The notes beneath the pieces are model-generated. The model did not search any database. It worked only from the letters and a program-made list of their open reading frames with translations, and was not told the origin of the DNA. Shown here one piece after another: positions 7,752 to 22,076 of a stretch of DNA of 33,237 bases (position 1 is its first letter; each line of letters opens with the position of its first letter). Where the stretch lies: NCBI GenBank assembly GCA_902799855.1, contig CADCCA010000007.1:1-33237 (forward strand). Direction: 5' to 3'. The translations under genes and the position numbers were made by a program. Source of the DNA: an uncultured Erysipelotrichaceae bacterium. Its GTDB lineage: Bacteria; Bacillota_I; Bacilli_A; RFN20; CAG-826.

Positions 7752-8165
7752 ATGAAACTCGCAATTAGATACTTCACAAAAAGTAAAAAGGGCAACACTG
7801 AAAAAATCGCTAAGTTCATTCAAGAAAAGATTAATGTCGAGGCCCTAGATGTCACTCATCCATTAGAAGAAGAAGTGGAACAATTACTTCTTGTTAATGC
7901 GATGTATGCTGCCGATGTTGATAAAGAGATTAAAAATTTCTTAAAGAGCAACGCTAGTAAGATTAAATGCTTAATTAATATCAATAGTAGTGCTTCTGGC
8001 GCTTCTACCTATAAAGCGGTCAAGAAAGTGTGCGATAAAAATAACATCGCTATTTCAGATAAAGAATTCCACACTGTAGCGTCTTGGATCTTCATTAATA
8101 AAGGCAGACCAAACGAACAAGACTTCGCTAGATTAGAAGAATTCCTTAAGGAAGTTACTAAATAA
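7752..8165 (+). CDS. Flavodoxin-like protein
   Basis: A 137-residue protein with the alternating strand/helix pattern of a short flavodoxin fold. The N-terminal strand LAIRYFTKSKKGNTEKIA (residues 3-20) corresponds to the FMN phosphate-binding loop: a T/S-rich loop, then GNT before helix 1. The loop SSASGASTY near residue 77 fits the second flavin loop. No signal peptide or membrane segment. A GAGGAGG site lies six bases before the ATG. It overlaps the start of the OhrR-Gpx fusion by one base (TAATG), so the two are co-translated. A role as electron donor or in redox repair together with the peroxidase is inferred from context. Confidence 0.75.
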   Translation: MKLAIRYFTKSKKGNTEKIAKFIQEKINVEALDVTHPLEEEVEQLLLVNAMYAADVDKEIKNFLKSNASKIKCLININSSASGASTYKAVKKVCDKNNIAISDKEFHTVASWIFINKGRPNEQDFARLEEFLKEVTK

Positions 8166-9022
8166 TGGATAAATACGATTCATTATTGCTCAAAAACCAA
8201 CTCTGTTTTCCGACCTACGCTGTCGCTAATAAGATTGTTAGAAAATATCAACCCTTATTAGATAAGATTAATCTCACATATACACAGTATATTGTCATGA
8301 TGGTGATGTGGGAAAAGAAAACAGTTAATGAAAAAGAGCTATGTGACGCTTTAAGATTAAAAACCAACACCTTAACTCCTTTGTTAAAGAAGTTAAAAGA
8401 AAAAGGTTTTATCTCCATTAATAAAGATCAAGAAGATAAACGTAACTTAGTTATTACATTAACTAAAGATGGTGAAGCCTTAAAAGAAAAAGCGGTGGAT
8501 GTTCCTCCATCAATCGCGATTACGAAAAAGGAGAATAATATTATGTCAGTTTATGATTTCAAAGTTTTAAACCAAGCCGGTGAAGAAGTTAGTTTAAAAG
8601 AATACAAAGGTAAAGTCCTTCTAATTGTTAATACTGCGACAAAATGTGGTTTCACCCCACAATATGACGCTATTGAAAAGATGTATGAAGAATTCAAAGA
8701 ACAAGGATTCGAAGTCTTAGACTTCCCATGTAACCAATTCTTCCATCAAGCGCCAGGAAGCGATGAAGAAATCAATCAATTCTGCTCCCTTAGATTTAAC
8801 ACCAAATTCCCAAGATTCAAAAAGGTGGATGTTAAAGGCGCTAATGCCATCCCATTATATCAATGGTTAATTAGACAAAATGAAAAAGGCAAACCACAAG
8901 CCATTAAATGGAACTTCACTAAATTCTTGATTAATCGTCAAGGTGAAGTCGTCGCTAGATTCAGCCCAACCGATAAACCTGAATCTTTCATTGAACAAGT
9001 GAGAGAAGAATTGCAAAAATAG
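8165..9022 (+). CDS. OhrR-type MarR regulator fused in frame to glutathione peroxidase
   Basis: A 285-residue open frame. Residues 1-120 match OhrR-type MarR proteins. They keep the N-terminal NQLCF motif whose Cys (C14) senses organic peroxides, and a winged helix with TNTLTPLLKKLKEKGF. The match stops after KEKAVDVPPSIA, so the last helix or two of the dimerisation domain (about 30 residues in OhrR) are absent. From Met127 a complete glutathione peroxidase follows: peroxidatic Cys161 in TKCGFTPQY, FPCNQF, resolving Cys207 in QFCSLRF (thioredoxin-dependent type) and WNFTKFL. AAGGAG (8528-8533) lies nine bases before ATG 8543, so Gpx can also be made alone. This is either a true sensor-enzyme fusion or a gene merged by a deletion. 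Confidence 0.88.
   Translation: MDKYDSLLLKNQLCFPTYAVANKIVRKYQPLLDKINLTYTQYIVMMVMWEKKTVNEKELCDALRLKTNTLTPLLKKLKEKGFISINKDQEDKRNLVITLTKDGEALKEKAVDVPPSIAITKKENNIMSVYDFKVLNQAGEEVSLKEYKGKVLLIVNTATKCGFTPQYDAIEKMYEEFKEQGFEVLDFPCNQFFHQAPGSDEEINQFCSLRFNTKFPRFKKVDVKGANAIPLYQWLIRQNEKGKPQAIKWNFTKFLINRQGEVVARFSPTDKPESFIEQVREELQK
8528..8545 (+). promoter_or_regulatory. Internal ribosome binding site and start for stand-alone Gpx
   Basis: AAGGAG at 8528-8533, nine-base spacer, ATG at 8543-8545. It lies inside the fused frame at exactly the point where the peroxidase homology begins. It would give a 159-residue Gpx of normal family length beside the full fusion. Confidence 0.7.
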
Positions 9023-9041: not shown

Positions 9042-9079
9042 AAAAAAGGGACCTTATATATAAAGGTTCCTTTTCTTTT
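9042..9079. terminator. Bidirectional terminator between OhrR-Gpx and the deiminase
   Basis: GGGACCTT (9048-9055) pairs with AAGGTTCC (9063-9070) with one G-T pair. A T-run follows on the plus strand (9071-9079) and an A-run precedes it (9042-9047), so it serves both convergent genes. Confidence 0.85.
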
Positions 9080-10934
9080 ACATTACTTTGAATTGATGTG
9101 GATCAAGATTTCCACATGTTGGATCGATATTGTAATTATCTTTTTTATCTTTTGCTTCAATGTAATATTTAACTTCATCACCATTTTTTAAGCCTTGGAA
9201 GGCAAATGTATAGTTTGATGTTTCTAAATATTGATACATTGGGCTAGTGACATAACTTGAATCATTGATTGAGTAGTGGATACTAACATCTTTAATATCT
9301 TCTTTAGCATAGCTAACAACATTAGTTTTAATCACGTAATTATCTTGATACGCTACTTCTCCATGATAAACTTCACGAGAATCAATAAAGACCATATTTT
9401 GATCAGGTACTTCATGAGTGCGGCAGTGTAAGGCATCGGTATTAAGGAATTGCCTACCATAAGAATCTGACGCTCTAAAACCTTTAATACCAACAACGTC
9501 ATAGCCTGGTAGGGCTTCTCTATAAACCTCTAAGGCCTTGTTGTTATAAGTAGAATTACTACCTAAAGGCATATAAACATGTCCGTTAGCGATTAATGAG
9601 TTGGTGTAAGGTGCGACAGTAGAACCACCTGGTTCTTCAATACGATAAATACGGTAATTATAGCCATAAGCACATTTAGTGTTCGCTAATTCGTTAGCCA
9701 CTTGTTCATAGTACTGATAGCGAGGATTGCTTTCAGGCAGTTTGGCAACAATAATCTTATCAGGTGCAACAATCTTACCCCAACAGTCAATATGGGCGAT
9801 ATAGTCGCCTTGAGGGTCAATAGTGATAACATAGTTATCTGTACCTGTATATTGCTTCATTTGATTGAGTACATTGGTTTTGTTGTTATTATTTTCACTA
9901 ACAACCAAATCATCGCTAAAAGCGGTGCCTCTTCCATCTTGCATGAGGTTACCACCAGTATGGGTGATATTCATCTTAGAATAAGACATATTGAAATATG
10001 TTGCTAGTTTGCTTGGCACAGCATTTTGTTCGTATCTAGGACGATTATATGTAAAGTCCACAATGGACAAATCTTTATCATTAAAGACATAGAAAGGAGA
10101 GAAATCTCTCACCCAATAAGCATAATCATCATCGATTGGCATATCGATAAAGGTAATGTTATCCATGTTCGCGCCTGCGCTTGTTAAAGATGATTTAGCA
10201 GCGTTAATGCGAGAAGTGCCGGTTGATCCTGGATTCACTAATAACAGAATCTTATTATGTTCAGATATTGTCGCATATGCAGCAGTCGGCATATTGAATG
10301 GGTAGCACATCTTAATCATCTGAGATGGCTCAAATTCACCAGGCATTCTTTTAGAGAATGTTGCAATAGGGCTATAGTTATCTAAATAATCAAAGTTGAT
10401 ACTAGAACTTTGTGAAGAAGAACTAGAAACACTGGAACTTGCTTGACTAGAAGAACTGCTAGCCGCGCTACTTGAAGCAATGCTACTAGATGATGAACTA
10501 GATGAGCTACTACTATAAGAGCTTGAAGATTGTTGAGAACTACTAGAAGATTGTGAACTTGATGTAGTGGAGCTAGAAGTCTCAGAAGAACTCATCATAG
10601 ATGAACTACTTGTCTCACTCGTTGAAGAAGTTGCACTAGCGTGGCTAGATGAATTACTTGAAGATGAGACAACATTACTTGATGACTTTGTCTCACTAGA
10701 AGAACTATTGAGACTAGAACAACTTTGATAACTGCTTTCTGAAGTAGTGGTTACTTCGCTTGAACTAATAACTTTGCTACTTTCATTAGATGATGAAGAT
10801 TCCGCTGAAGAACTGGATTCATTAGAAGAATCAGTAAAAGAACTAGTGGAACTAGATGAGACATTTACCGCACAAGAAGATAATGATAGGGCGGTTAACA
10901 TTGTTAAGATGCGAATTAATGGAACCTTTTTCAT
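9078..10934 (-). CDS. Secreted PPAD-like peptidylarginine deiminase lipoprotein
   Basis: A 618-residue protein. The lipoprotein signal ends at LSSC (C21). A Ser-rich, probably extended linker spans about 25-178. A PAD_porph/agmatine-deiminase fold spans about 190-520, and a C-terminal beta domain about 535-618. Catalytic positions are D277 (WVRDF), H381 and D383 (HIDCWGK), N445 (PYTNSLI) and nucleophile C504 (DALHCRTHE). Their spacing closely follows PPAD of P. gingivalis (D130, H236, D238, N297, C351 as I recall). An RPR motif (R298, R300) lies where PPAD R152/R154 grip the C-terminal carboxylate. Cytosolic agmatine deiminases lack a signal and linker, so peptidyl-arginine is the likelier substrate. 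A -10 TATAAT lies ten bases before the ATG and there is no clear ribosome binding site. Confidence 0.85.
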   Translation of the reverse strand: MKKVPLIRILTMLTALSLSSCAVNVSSSSTSSFTDSSNESSSSAESSSSNESSKVISSSEVTTTSESSYQSCSSLNSSSSETKSSSNVVSSSSNSSSHASATSSTSETSSSSMMSSSETSSSTTSSSQSSSSSQQSSSSYSSSSSSSSSSSIASSSAASSSSSQASSSVSSSSSQSSSINFDYLDNYSPIATFSKRMPGEFEPSQMIKMCYPFNMPTAAYATISEHNKILLLVNPGSTGTSRINAAKSSLTSAGANMDNITFIDMPIDDDYAYWVRDFSPFYVFNDKDLSIVDFTYNRPRYEQNAVPSKLATYFNMSYSKMNITHTGGNLMQDGRGTAFSDDLVVSENNNNKTNVLNQMKQYTGTDNYVITIDPQGDYIAHIDCWGKIVAPDKIIVAKLPESNPRYQYYEQVANELANTKCAYGYNYRIYRIEEPGGSTVAPYTNSLIANGHVYMPLGSNSTYNNKALEVYREALPGYDVVGIKGFRASDSYGRQFLNTDALHCRTHEVPDQNMVFIDSREVYHGEVAYQDNYVIKTNVVSYAKEDIKDVSIHYSINDSSYVTSPMYQYLETSNYTFAFQGLKNGDEVKYYIEAKDKKDNYNIDPTCGNLDPHQFKVM

Positions 10935-10944
10935 AACTCTAACT

Positions 10945-10950
10945 ATTATA
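10945..10950 (-). promoter_or_regulatory. -10 element of the deiminase gene, near-leaderless start
   Basis: TATAAT on the minus strand, ten bases upstream of ATG 10934. No GGAGG-like site lies between. The -35 is weak in an AT-rich stretch. Confidence 0.5.
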
Positions 10951-11074
10951 AATTAAATTAATTAAAGATAAATATAAATAATAACACGCGTGAAAACAGA
11001 CGATTTAAGAGACTTTAATATAATTAATGCTATTTATCGTCTTTTTCTTTAAATAATCTAAAAATAAGGAAAAA

Positions 11075-11109
11075 CAAATAAAAACCCTCATTCATTAACG
11101 AACGAGGGT
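11075..11109 (-). terminator. Terminator of the clostripain-like gene
   Basis: On the minus strand a ten-base stem ACCCTCGTTC / GAATGAGGGT (one G-T pair, loop GTTAAT; plus-strand positions 11084-11109) is followed by TTTTATTT. Confidence 0.85.
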
Positions 11110-11130
11110 AATTAATTTAAGTAATACTTA

Positions 11131-14100
11131 CTAGAATAAGCTTCTCCAGTTAGTGAATGATGTTTCACTAGATGGATAATAGTAGGAACTAGCAGCGATG
11201 AAGCCTAAGCCATTGGCGTTACCAGCAGAACTACCTTTTCTTGAGTAGGCCACTAATTGTTTATAAGCGGTCTTAGCAGCACTAATCTTATCCGAGAAGG
11301 AAGAGAACTTGCTATTGTTACCTAACTTATTCAAGAAGTCATAGCCATCGATTTGGCTACCGCTGAAGCTCTTTGTGCTATTAACGATGCTGTTGAATGT
11401 GCTCTTGTTACTACTGACAGTAGTCTTGATAGTACTTGCCATAGATTCGATAGCGTTGAAATAGGTTGGCATCTTGCTTAAATCTAAGTAAGAAAGTGTT
11501 TGATCTTCACCATATGTGGAGATAAATGAGTCACAATTTGCTTTTAAGATTGTTCTAGTATCTTTGCCGGCATATAAATCATCGACCCAGCCGCTATAGA
11601 CCCAACCTTCACCAACTTCTGATTCTTGTGAACCAACCATGTAGTTGAAGTATTTGGAATTGAATTCAGCAACGTCTTGGATTTGCATAATGCAAGCGTC
11701 ATAACCGATGAATTCGAGTTTATCGATGCCACGAGCAGATAAGACGTTCTTGAAAGCGGCTGATGTTTCTGAATTTGTTAAGCTGTCGCTATTATAGTTT
11801 TCGTCGAAGCAAACGCCATCTAATGCGCCACCATGGTTCCAGAAGATAACGCCAGTATTTTCTGCTGGATAATTATCTAAGCCCCAGTTTAAGAATGATT
11901 CTAATGTGGATTGTTTACCCATACTGGCTTTAGCAATTTTTTGATCTAAAACAAGGCTTTGGTTTTCAACGTGATAACGGGATAATTTGTTGGCGTCAAT
12001 GTTATAACCGTGCCAACTTCTTGAACCACCGGTTTCAATGATGAAGTTAACATCATCTGGTTGGTTCTTAACGCTTAAGATTTCTTCAATATCAGCAGTA
12101 CCATAACCAGAATAACTTTCTAAGTCAGCACCGCAGAGATAAAGCAAAATTGTCCAAGCAGCACCAGTAAATTCTTTGGTTTCAACCTCAAATGTTGCTT
12201 CTAAATTATTACCTCTAGATTTTGTTCTTGCTGTGATTGTGGCTTTACCAGCGCTAACGGCGGTGACAACGCCATCGTTATTAACAGTAGCCACAGCTTC
12301 ATTAGAAGAAGACCATGTTATTTCATTGAATGAATTAGAATTAAGTGGCGTATAATTCACTGATAATTGAGCAGTCTTATCAATAGAGATGCTTTGTTTA
12401 CCACTTAAGGAAATGCTTGTTGGATAAATGATATTGGTCTCAACAAGATTAAAGATTTGTGGATAGACTAAGTTAGTACCAATGACACTCTTAGTGGTTG
12501 TCATTCTTCCTGTAGCAGGATCATAACATAAACGACCGAATGTTTTATTGGCGTTCATGATAATAGCGCATCCTGTTTGATTGTTGAAGGTGATGGTCCA
12601 TTCTGTAGAACCTTCATTCCAACCGATGTTACCAATGTCGCTAGCGCCAAGTTTTCTACCTAACATATCGGTAAGAGTCCAGTAACTGTCAGTAACTTTA
12701 TTTAATGTAAAGCGAACTGTTGTTTTGGAAATAATAGCAGGACCATTATCTTCGAATTTGCATTGAGTGGTGCTGAAATAATCACCTTCAAGACTTGTCG
12801 CGATAATTGATTGCTGAGCGTTGCCTAACACGACAATTTGATTTTCTTTAAGACTGGATTTTTCACTAATTAACGCACCTTTGTAACCTTTATCTGGGAA
12901 TTCATTAAAGTAATTGACCATTAAAGAGAATGTCTTATTAACGGTTTTGAAAGTAATAATGGCATCAGCGTTATCTTTCTTAGCCACGAAGCTACCATTA
13001 TCTTCGTCAATGGTCCAGCCATCGTTATTCAATAAGACTTTATATTGATCAGCGATGGAATCAGTACCAACTGTTCCTTCATCAAGAGTGGTGGCATAGA
13101 AATATTTGCTACCGTCTTGTTCAGGCTCTAAGCTATCAGTCCATTCATCAAAACCAACTGGTTCTGGAATAGATGTTTTGATAGCTTGGAGTTGTAAGAA
13201 TGAACTTAATTTTTCACTTGGGAATTTATTCATTCTTTCTTTCACGCTGACATTTAATGAACATGTTTTGCCTTCAAAAGTAATAGTGAGGTCTTGAGCA
13301 CCTGGATTTTCATTGTTGTAGCCTTCAACTTTATAGTTTTCAAGTTCAACAGTGGAACCATCAGAGTATGTGCCAATGACAGTAATATCTAAATCTTCAC
13401 CATATTCATAAGCATCTTTATTGCTAACTGCGGTGATGCTTACTAAAACAGGATTATTAACTGTGACTTTGAAGGTATATGTTTTATCTTCATAAGTAAC
13501 GGTGACTGTTTGTTCACCGGATTGTTCTTTGTTATAACCGCTTACTTTATAATCAGTGATTTCTTTTGAAGAGTTATCAGAATAAGAAGCAGTAACTGTT
13601 AAGTCTAAATCTTCACCCCATTCATAAGATTCTTTGCTAGTAACAGCGATATCCACTAAGGATGGGTTATTAACTAAGACTTTTAAGGAAGTGGTTTTAC
13701 CTTGATAACTAACTGTAATTGTTTGCTCACCAGATTCTTCTTTGTTATAACCACTCACTTCATAATCGGTAACGTTAACAGTGGAACCATCGGAATAAGA
13801 AGCAGTAACTGTTAAGTCTAAATCTTCACCCCATTCATAAGATTCTTCGTTATTGATAACATCGAGAGAAACAATGATTGGGTCATTCACTCTAATCTTT
13901 AAAGTAGTGATCTTGGTTTGATAAGTGAAGACAACGTTTTGTTCGCCAGAAATATTAGGATTATAACCAATCACTTGATATTCAGTAACTTCAACGGAAG
14001 TACCATCTGAATAATTAGCGAAAACCTTTACGCTTAATTCTTCACCGAATTCAAAAGAATCTTTAGCTGGAACAGCGGTAATGCCTTCTAAGACGACTGG

Positions 14101-14286
14101 TTGACTTGATTGTGCGTTTGAATTATTGCTGTTTTCTTGACTGTTGGAGTTGGTATGGTTAGAGGAATTTTCAAAAGAAGGATTGTTTGAATCACCAGAA
14201 ACAGAACTACCACAAGCGGTAATTGCCATGAATAATCCAGTGACTATTGATCCGAGTAAGAATATCTTCTTTGATTTGTTAACCAT
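11131..14286 (-). CDS. Clostripain-family (C11) cysteine protease lipoprotein with Ig-like repeats
   Basis: A 1051-residue surface lipoprotein (lipobox ITAC, C25; Asn/Ser-rich linker 28-62). Four group-3 Ig-like repeats of about 70 residues follow (about 66-135, 137-208, 210-279, 281-349), the middle two nearly alike (EWGEDLDLTVTASYSD). Then come an unknown domain (about 353-460) that resembles repeats in the neighbouring collagen-like protein, a beta-rich domain (about 478-618) and a group-2 Ig-like domain (about 620-702). The peptidase C11 domain (from about 708) has the catalytic dyad H818 (FWNHGG) and C865 (GYDACIMQ). The family prototype cleaves after Arg. A ribosome binding site AAGGAGG fixes the start. 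The protein ends close to the C11 core with no added C-terminal anchor. Confidence 0.9.
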   Translation of the reverse strand: MVNKSKKIFLLGSIVTGLFMAITACGSSVSGDSNNPSFENSSNHTNSNSQENSNNSNAQSSQPVVLEGITAVPAKDSFEFGEELSVKVFANYSDGTSVEVTEYQVIGYNPNISGEQNVVFTYQTKITTLKIRVNDPIIVSLDVINNEESYEWGEDLDLTVTASYSDGSTVNVTDYEVSGYNKEESGEQTITVSYQGKTTSLKVLVNNPSLVDIAVTSKESYEWGEDLDLTVTASYSDNSSKEITDYKVSGYNKEQSGEQTVTVTYEDKTYTFKVTVNNPVLVSITAVSNKDAYEYGEDLDITVIGTYSDGSTVELENYKVEGYNNENPGAQDLTITFEGKTCSLNVSVKERMNKFPSEKLSSFLQLQAIKTSIPEPVGFDEWTDSLEPEQDGSKYFYATTLDEGTVGTDSIADQYKVLLNNDGWTIDEDNGSFVAKKDNADAIITFKTVNKTFSLMVNYFNEFPDKGYKGALISEKSSLKENQIVVLGNAQQSIIATSLEGDYFSTTQCKFEDNGPAIISKTTVRFTLNKVTDSYWTLTDMLGRKLGASDIGNIGWNEGSTEWTITFNNQTGCAIIMNANKTFGRLCYDPATGRMTTTKSVIGTNLVYPQIFNLVETNIIYPTSISLSGKQSISIDKTAQLSVNYTPLNSNSFNEITWSSSNEAVATVNNDGVVTAVSAGKATITARTKSRGNNLEATFEVETKEFTGAAWTILLYLCGADLESYSGYGTADIEEILSVKNQPDDVNFIIETGGSRSWHGYNIDANKLSRYHVENQSLVLDQKIAKASMGKQSTLESFLNWGLDNYPAENTGVIFWNHGGALDGVCFDENYNSDSLTNSETSAAFKNVLSARGIDKLEFIGYDACIMQIQDVAEFNSKYFNYMVGSQESEVGEGWVYSGWVDDLYAGKDTRTILKANCDSFISTYGEDQTLSYLDLSKMPTYFNAIESMASTIKTTVSSNKSTFNSIVNSTKSFSGSQIDGYDFLNKLGNNSKFSSFSDKISAAKTAYKQLVAYSRKGSSAGNANGLGFIAASSYYYPSSETSFTNWRSLF

Positions 14287-20561: not shown

Positions 20562-22076
20562 ATGAGCGAAAAAGTCTTATTAGCGGTTAACGGCACTTTG
20601 ATGCGTGGTTTAGCCTTACACAGTAACTTAACTGATGCTGGGGCTACTTTTATTAAGAAAAGTAAAACTGAAAAAGCCTACCGTTTATATAGTATTAACG
20701 ACCAATATCCCGCTATGATCAAAGAGGAAAAAGGTCAAGCTATTGCAGTGGAACTATTTGAAATAAGCGAAGAAGGTATGCAAGAAGTCCTTTCTAAGGA
20801 ACCAGAAGGTTTAACTATTGATAAAATCACTTTGATCGATAAAAAAGAAGTCTATGGTGTTATTGGTTTACCTTCCATTATTGAAGGACAAAAGGATATT
20901 ACTTCTTTTAAAGGCTGGAGAAAGTATATCGCTTCTTTAAAGCCAATTCATAAATTCATCCCTTTAATTGTTAAAGGCTCAATAATTCTTGGTTTACTGT
21001 TAATCTTTTTAATTCTTGTTCTTTTAAAAAAGAACCATGATATCGCGGAAGGTATGTCTAGAACCATCGCTAGGGGGTATGGAGCGACTGTCAGCGGTAT
21101 CAGTTCTATCCTCCCATTCGTCTCCTTGATGGAATTATTCTTCCTGGCCTTATTTGGAGGAATCATCACTTTGCTCATCTTTTTCATCATCGACTTAGTG
21201 AAGAAAAGAATAATCAAAGCGTTCTGCCGCATTTTAAATATCGCCATTATGGTTATTTCAACAATCACAACTTACCAATTATCTTGTGAAGCAGCCTATA
21301 ACCGTAAACCCATTCCTTTACCATATTATGAAGGGGAAGTGGAAAGAGAAGAATATATCGATATCTTCAATTATTTTGCAACCGACATCAACACCTGTGT
21401 TGAATCGTTAGAATTTGATAAATCTGGCGATGTTAAAACCAAGATGAACATTTGGGACATCGCAAAAGTGGTCAAAAAGGCTTATTCCATACTCGACGGT
21501 AATTCCTATTACAATAGCCATTTCGGATCAGTTAAGCCAATGATGTCATCGTTCTTATATCGTGAATTCCAAATCACAGGTTTTACTTTTTCACCATCAG
21601 GTGAGGCTAATATCGATGTTTTGATCCCAGTGGGTGATCTTCCTTTTACCATCGCTCACGAACTCGCTCACACCAAAGGGGTAATGAGAGAAGATGAGGC
21701 CAACCAATTAGCCTTCTATGTCTGTTTAAATAGTGAAAGCCCATTCTTAAGATTCTCTGCTTATAGCCGTTATTTCTATTTGATGAGAAGCATGGCCTCA
21801 ACTTCATATTTGACAGATGAAGAAAGAGAACAATTAGTCAAAGTTGATCCATCTTTAAGTAAACTTGAATCTTTCGAATATAAGTTTTGGAAAGAACATG
21901 ACTTATTAGCCAAGATTGGTGATTTCTTTAATAACCTCTACATCAAAAGCAGTGGTGTCAGTGGCGGTACTTCTTCCTATCACGGTGGTACAGAATATAC
22001 CTATGATCCAACCGAACATAGAATTACTCCTTCTAAATACCACAAATTATTCTTTGAAAAATATTATCGCGCTTAA
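20562..22076 (+). CDS. AtzF-C/GGCT-like domain fused to DUF3810 membrane metallopeptidase
   Basis: A 504-residue fusion. Residues 3-125 resemble the C-terminal domain of allophanate hydrolase, a gamma-glutamylcyclotransferase-like fold: NGTLMRG, then RLYSINDQYPAMI, then DITSFKGWRKYI. Three membrane segments follow (about 132-155, 186-210, 222-240). The rest matches DUF3810 with a zinc-protease motif HELAH (366-370) and a downstream Glu in REDEANQLAF as probable third ligand. No signal peptide; the N-terminal domain would be cytoplasmic, with the peptidase after the third segment, probably outside. An allophanate-hydrolase amidase domain is absent, so the urea pathway is unlikely. Substrate unknown. 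Confidence 0.75.
   Translation: MSEKVLLAVNGTLMRGLALHSNLTDAGATFIKKSKTEKAYRLYSINDQYPAMIKEEKGQAIAVELFEISEEGMQEVLSKEPEGLTIDKITLIDKKEVYGVIGLPSIIEGQKDITSFKGWRKYIASLKPIHKFIPLIVKGSIILGLLLIFLILVLLKKNHDIAEGMSRTIARGYGATVSGISSILPFVSLMELFFLALFGGIITLLIFFIIDLVKKRIIKAFCRILNIAIMVISTITTYQLSCEAAYNRKPIPLPYYEGEVEREEYIDIFNYFATDINTCVESLEFDKSGDVKTKMNIWDIAKVVKKAYSILDGNSYYNSHFGSVKPMMSSFLYREFQITGFTFSPSGEANIDVLIPVGDLPFTIAHELAHTKGVMREDEANQLAFYVCLNSESPFLRFSAYSRYFYLMRSMASTSYLTDEEREQLVKVDPSLSKLESFEYKFWKEHDLLAKIGDFFNNLYIKSSGVSGGTSSYHGGTEYTYDPTEHRITPSKYHKLFFEKYYRA

Follow-up and report, generated by a model that had tools for sequence, protein, structure and literature searches.

Does a member of the Bacilli carry the same kind of deiminase as Porphyromonas gingivalis, and do the proteases of the same cell make its substrates? 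The question is raised by a 33,237-nt contig stretch from an uncultured Erysipelotrichaceae bacterium (the whole stretch is called the window below), in which a gene for a lipoprotein resembling the P. gingivalis deiminase PPAD lies next to one for a C11 (clostripain-type) protease (positions 9078-14286, Table 1). The answer we favor, with a probability of about two in three, is that the window encodes a PPAD-type exo-deiminase which is shared with rumen Bacteroidales, is displayed as a lipoprotein and acts on peptide ends made by Arg/Lys-specific proteases of clan CD.

The deiminase, its residues and its fold

Family PF04371 matches the deiminase with an E value of 3.9e-32, and the PPAD chains match it with an E value of 2e-81, far above chance. 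Residues 4-429 of the deiminase model align with PPAD residues 53-463, with 37% identity over 408 residues, and the Ig-like domain of PPAD is found again both in the sequence and in the model. The key residues of the catalytic domain are W274, D277, R298, R300, G328, Y378, H381, D383, C384, N445, T499 and C504. D277, H381, D383, N445 and C504 align with the catalytic set of PPAD (D130, H236, D238, N297, C351), and R298, R300 and Y378 correspond in the sequence alignment to R152, R154 and Y233, so that the carboxylate clamp is present. The roles of these three PPAD residues in binding the C-terminal carboxylate of the substrate are described in two papers (PMC4487231, PMC4893104).

A preliminary description of the locus, made from the letters alone, had placed two lipoprotein open reading frames (ORFs) on the minus strand, had proposed the five catalytic residues and the two arginines, and had quoted the PPAD numbering. 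Both ORFs lie where it put them, with the lipoboxes LSSC and ITAC (read by eye), the residues align as it claimed and the numbering agrees with the two papers; the match of Y378 to Y233 and the Ig-like domain go beyond it.

With PPAD (PDB 4yt9, 5ak7) the window enzyme shares the catalytic pentad, the clamp, C239, the Ig-like domain and, as predicted here, the extracellular location. It differs from PPAD in being a lipoprotein with a Ser-rich linker, in its Bacilli-related host and in that no C25 gingipain was found with it; the RPR loop, moreover, has one extra residue in many of its Bacilli relatives. The C-terminal sorting tail of the type IX secretion system (T9SS), as known from P. gingivalis, is absent: the protein ends at the Ig-like domain and has a lipobox instead, a difference that concerns export and not the class of enzyme. 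Judged by its sequence, the window deiminase is a PPAD homologue with a full substrate clamp and a predicted surface lipoprotein; it would citrullinate peptides and would do so specifically at a C-terminal Arg.

Relatives in the Bacilli and in rumen Bacteroidales

Relatives were searched by pattern and by tblastn in 84,980 species genomes, which yielded 542 stretches; the best 80 of the 542 were analyzed, and the remaining 462 may hold several per genome. Twenty-five of the 80 carry Bacilli, Bacillales or Erysipelotrichaceae titles (best-segment identity 63-79%), the other 55 titles of the Bacteroidales type (44-48%; L025-L080 without L068), and ruminant sample names are frequent among them. 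In a further search for relatives 7999 candidates were scored, 4459 passed and 120 were listed.

The window and G005, a metagenome-assembled genome (MAG) that bears the title Bacilli bacterium and a yak omasum sample name, have RecN proteins with 86% identity. Two sets of genomes, many of them MAGs, were sampled around these organisms: 196 from the family of G005 and 295 from the order of the rumen Bacteroidales. In the first the deiminase occurs in 25 of 196 genomes, which is not an unbiased prevalence because 24 of the carriers had been preselected from the best 80 stretches; in the 25th (G087) the gene is partial. In the second, a match at E <= 1e-20 was found in 115 of 295 genomes; for 89 the best E value is about 1e-90 or lower, and the 26 weaker matches are the sister group or partial genes. 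Relatives of PPAD are common in rumen bacteria.

The key-residue alignment comprised domains of more than 250 residues (L105 and 3 of 20 regions of the weak group are shorter). The 12 positions show no change in any of the 26 Bacilli rows. Each residue is kept in 59 or 60 of the 60 rumen Bacteroidales rows (R154 in 60, R152 and Y233 in 59), among which at least two genes are doubled (L106 = L025, L109 = L049) and a paralogue from L042 is included. Of 28 other Bacteroidales rows, all have R152 and R154, and 26 have Y233. In the tree, for which 28 of the 60 rumen rows were drawn at random and columns with more than 40% gaps were removed, the Bacilli enzymes form one clade (100) that is sister to the rumen Bacteroidales enzymes (100), and P. 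gingivalis PPAD groups among other Bacteroidales (86). The simplest reading, and most likely the right one, is one old transfer, its direction being into the Bacilli because the Bacteroidales sister group lies outside.

A Bacteroidales clade that is sister to PPAD (L118-L137) has a changed clamp: R152 is kept in 15 of 17 rows and R154 in all 17, Gly replaces Y233 in 13 of 17, and Met replaces C239 in 17 of 17. The Y233 position is Ser or Thr in the human peptidylarginine deiminases (PADs), which act on internal Arg, as stated in PMC4487231; because of this the sister-clade enzymes may likewise accept internal Arg.

The relatives differ in how they would be held outside the cell. Of the 26 Bacilli relatives (the 25 loci and L105), 24 have a lipobox pattern ahead of the domain; the two exceptions, L002 and L105, are cut ORFs. 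Their linkers are 12-169 residues long, Ser-rich in many relatives and rich in Pro and acidic residues in others. The median tail behind the domain is 1 residue in Bacilli vs 183 in rumen Bacteroidales, whose enzymes have T9SS-like or dockerin-like tails instead of a lipobox, and some of which adjoin gingipain-like genes. When 56 Bacteroidales ORF ends were sorted by regular expression, 26 were T9SS-like, 25, about half, dockerin-like and 5 neither; in ten proteins scanned, TIGR04183 matches six and PF00404 two (L028 and L030, whose dockerin-like ends it confirms). The lipobox of the one lineage and such tails in the other are thus predicted to serve the same end, an extracellular deiminase.

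Candidate protease partners and the readings they allow

The protease domain of the neighboring gene matches PF03415 with an E value of 4.1e-34. H818 and C865, named in the preliminary description, are the His/Cys dyad of the C11 family, and the acidic, Arg-selecting S1 residue that it suggested looking for is present at the sequence level as D863; all three are invariant in the 30 rows of the C11 alignment. In the C11 family the Asp two positions ahead of the catalytic Cys is described as the main S1 residue, and PmC11 accepts Arg as well as Lys (PMC4850288). Among solved structures the protein finds two C11 enzymes by sequence, weakly (E 9e-6 and 7e-5); its C11 domain model (pLDDT 94) has clostripain (9cip) as best structural match, with a TM score of 0.78. 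Clostripain, PmC11 and iotapain share the fold, the dyad and the S1 Asp with the window protease, which differs from the solved C11 enzymes in being a lipoprotein with four Big_3 domains and one Big_2 domain ahead of the protease domain and in having only 11-20% identity to them. From these likenesses the window C11 enzyme would be expected to cut after Arg or Lys.

C11 and deiminase go together at the level of the genome. In the 196 genomes C11 is present in 24 of 25 that have the deiminase vs 47 of 171 that lack it (Fisher p 2.5e-11; none of the co-occurrence statistics for these genomes is corrected for kinship), and in the clade with RecN at least 60% identical these counts are 10 of 10 and 0 of 3. 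The locus L005 keeps the order collagen-like lipoprotein, C11, deiminase of the window; its C11 is 52% identical and its similar collagen-like protein 35% over 262 columns, partly of low complexity. Three Bacilli genomes (G010, G014, G020) carry C11 and S8 protease domains on the same strand with some 400-500 bases between them.

In the Bacteroidales the protease found beside some of the deiminase genes is of another family, the gingipain-type C25. Flanks of 11 of the 55 loci contain C25, 14 genes in 0.90 Mb as counted with a purpose-built C25 model, vs about 3.3 expected from 185 Pfam matches in about 51 Mb of 18 genomes. A C25 gene on the same strand within 200 bp was found in L048, L057, L058 and L059 and likewise beside the paralogue in L217; the C25 of L065 is more remote (E 1e-5 against RgpB). 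RgpB is the nearest relative of the neighbors in L048 (E 1e-88) and L059 (1e-100) and of the downstream one in L057 (9e-94), where C25, Kgp-like, PPAD-like and RgpB-like genes follow each other on one strand. The RgpB-like neighbors and the first C25 of L057 keep the catalytic His and Cys and an Asp aligned with RgpB Asp163 (own numbering), which we take to be the S1 residue. The T9SS sortase PorU is itself a C25 member, which partly explains why C25 is found in 266 of the 295 Bacteroidales genomes, and because of this high background only adjacency was used here. The same model found no C25 match in the 25 related Bacilli genomes or their control genomes, and the purpose-built model found none in the window ORFs or in those of the Bacilli loci. 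In each phylum the deiminase is accompanied by a different clan CD protease, in the Bacilli linked by genome and not by operon. The preliminary description had supposed an analogous pair assembled from a different protease family. The lack of C25 matches in the 25 related genomes agrees with this; only the protease partner is different, however, because the deiminase is itself a PPAD homologue and sister to the rumen Bacteroidales enzymes.

As a sequence of events, a Bacilli lineage of rumen and gut would have gained the deiminase, most likely by one old transfer, now shares it with rumen Bacteroidales and, rather than exporting it by T9SS, would display it in lipoprotein form at the end of a flexible linker. 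C11, together with other surface proteases, would cut proteins after Arg or Lys outside the same cell, and the deiminase would then turn the C-terminal Arg of the peptides into citrulline with release of ammonia. The substrate-making proteases would be C11 in this Bacilli clade (the adjoining gene in the window) and C25 of the gingipain type in Bacteroidales. Candidate gains for the cell are nitrogen or pH, the shielding of peptide ends from basic carboxypeptidases and, not favored, citrulline as fuel.

A number of observations weigh against this joint role of protease and deiminase. Among the 25 Bacilli loci, 20 of which have at least 3.5 kb upstream, C11 stands beside the deiminase only in L005, so that the conserved adjacency which the preliminary description proposed to look for was not found; the other Bacilli loci share other genes around the deiminase, without C11. 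The adjacency search was seeded with the window C11 alone and cross-checked by the positions of Pfam matches in the genomes (G007 in one of two sets), with which it agrees. By chance about 0.6 C11 genes would be expected in the flanks (51 matches in about 31 Mb, 0.37 Mb of flank), an immediate neighbor on the same strand being less likely than that. A terminator-like hairpin lies in the 196-bp gap between the two genes (one of 10 such sites in the region, vs 5.2 expected from shuffles), and in the intergenic sequence of L005 one can likewise see by eye a hairpin followed up by a run of T; an operon of C11 and deiminase was rejected on the grounds of the single adjacency in 25 loci and the intervening hairpin. 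S8 proteases are also enriched (25 of 25 genomes with deiminase vs 98 of 171 without, p 3.6e-6), as is carbamate kinase (22 of 25 vs 35 of 171, p 6e-11), and in genomes that have both, C11 is present in 21 of 22 vs 20 of 25 (p 0.19). Because of this the association of C11 and deiminase may reflect common descent or a way of life that is proteolytic in general: the co-occurrence in relatives that the preliminary description named as a test is there and is strong, yet it is not specific to C11. In the Bacteroidales 44 of 55 loci have no C25 in the available flank, some C25 neighbors are of the Lys-gingipain type (those of L058 and L217 and the upstream one of L057 are nearest to Kgp, with E values of 4e-101 to 1e-136), and there are few independent cases of C25 adjacency because the deiminases of L057, L058, L059 and L080 are 86-90% alike. 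C11 was rejected as a general partner in this order: it was found in 0 of 8 and then in 9 of 115 genomes with deiminase vs 55 of 180 without (p 2e-6), the opposite direction.

The same facts can be read as a PPAD-type enzyme whose gene lies among clustered surface lipoprotein genes that are independent of one another, with C11 an unrelated neighbor and substrates coming from any extracellular protease. The rarity of the adjacency, the terminator-like hairpins after the genes and the enrichment of S8 speak for it. The presence of C11 somewhere in nearly all deiminase-bearing genomes, the distribution within the RecN clade and the gene order kept in L005 despite a C11 only 52% identical speak against it; we give this explanation somewhat less than an even chance and regard a joint pathway of C11 and deiminase as plausible. 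That the deiminase is an external arginine deiminase step for energy, C-terminal citrulline peptides being taken up and their citrulline converted to carbamoyl phosphate and ATP via carbamate kinase, would fit the enrichment of the kinase gene arcC over the cut-off, but we consider it improbable. Xanthine-dehydrogenase-type genes stand beside arcC in 33-35 of 59 loci (12-13 of 23 from genomes with deiminase, 21-22 of 36 from those without) and point toward purine breakdown; ORFs with the ornithine transcarbamylase motif occur in only 2 of the 59, both without deiminase; none of the 19 scanned clusters of arcC neighbors is ornithine transcarbamylase or arginine deiminase, the search having extended neither to 33 rarer ORFs (280-460 residues) nor to the rest of the genomes; and arcC is missing from G005, the closest genome. 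An agmatine deiminase that has acquired an export signal is hardly credible. Three relatives among the matches listed are named "agmatine deiminase family protein", the PF04371 family is the same, and agmatine deiminases have the propeller fold and the core residues. The window enzyme, however, is nearer to PPAD in sequence and in fold and keeps the clamp and the Ig-like domain, the latter lacking in the solved agmatine deiminases, which align over about 290-306 residues. With the NCBIfam agmatine deiminase models TIGR03380 and PRK13551 it scores 56 bits, where 381.8 and 483 would be required, and the agmatine deiminase reading was rejected on this ground.

As an observation in its own right, over half of the 59 arcC loci (L158-L216) in the family of G005 have genes of the xanthine dehydrogenase type around them, together with amidohydrolase and class V aminotransferase genes, which probably form a cluster for purine breakdown.

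The surrounding locus and the wider setting

Table 1. Features of the deiminase/C11 locus, in window coordinates.
Feature	Position	Strand	Basis
PPAD-type deiminase lipoprotein gene, 618 aa	9078..10934	-	ORF, profile and sequence matches
Signal peptide, lipobox LSSC (Cys21)	10872..10934	-	translation, by eye
Ser-rich linker, ~residues 22-189	10368..10871	-	translation
Deiminase catalytic domain, ~residues 196-510	9405..10349	-	Pfam, phmmer, alignment
Ig-like domain as in PPAD, ~residues 511-617, protein end	9084..9404	-	phmmer alignment reaching residue 617; model
C11 protease lipoprotein gene, 1051 aa, lipobox ITAC	11131..14286	-	ORF, Pfam; lipobox by eye
Four Big_3 Ig-like repeats, approximate span by eye	13237..14064	-	PF07523, 4 stretches
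Big_2 domain, residues 624-693	12208..12417	-	PF02368
Peptidase_C11 domain, residues 716-1049: H818, D863 (S1), C865	11140..12141	-	PF03415; alignment; model
Terminator-like hairpin between C11 and deiminase genes	11084..11109	-	hairpin scan
Collagen-like lipoprotein upstream of C11	14486..17251	-	Pfam/NCBIfam scans, translation

In the collagen-like lipoprotein similar segments alternate with Gly-X-Y stretches. The ORF at 8165-9022 has two fused parts, an OhrR-like MarR regulator (residues ~28-109) and a glutathione peroxidase domain (129-235); L024 matches only the regulator (86% over 118 residues). At 20562-22076 the C-terminal domain of allophanate hydrolase (AH_C) is joined to DUF3810. 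Carriage by a plasmid was rejected, no near DNA match among plasmids being found for window positions 1-25000. At the protein level carriage by phage or plasmid was rejected as well: the matches (7 phage records; 30 plasmid records, 20 of them listed) are distant, with 22-25% identity among the matches listed, and none covers 80% of the query.

The literature often presents PPAD as unique or close to it, and its bearer is called the "only known prokaryote" in PMC4585897. Other papers give PPAD also to P. gulae (PMC10329627), note a wider distribution of pPAD (PMC8826395) and report homologues of PAD/AD in some Firmicutes and Proteobacteria by cross-reaction of antibodies, not as PPAD genes (PMC11121387). 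Among the matches listed in the literature, subscription papers and preprints being outside the scope, no paper dealt with an enzyme of the PPAD type from rumen bacteria or Gram-positive Bacilli or with gingipain-PPAD gene clusters in these organisms.

Tentatively, a surface module of an Arg/Lys-specific clan CD protease and a PPAD-type deiminase could be a common trait of commensals in gut and rumen beyond P. gingivalis, built at least twice, with C25 in the Bacteroidales and with C11 in the Bacilli. The role of PPAD outside a pathogen becomes directly testable, with a clamp-bearing enzyme in relatives of Gram-positive bacteria of the gut and its kin beside gingipain-like genes in rumen bacteria. 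If the proposal is true, peptides with a C-terminal citrulline would be an ordinary product of gut microbes. Much of the argument that connects periodontitis with arthritis rests on PPAD being unique or nearly so, and the finding raises the question whether gut microbes supply citrullinated peptides.

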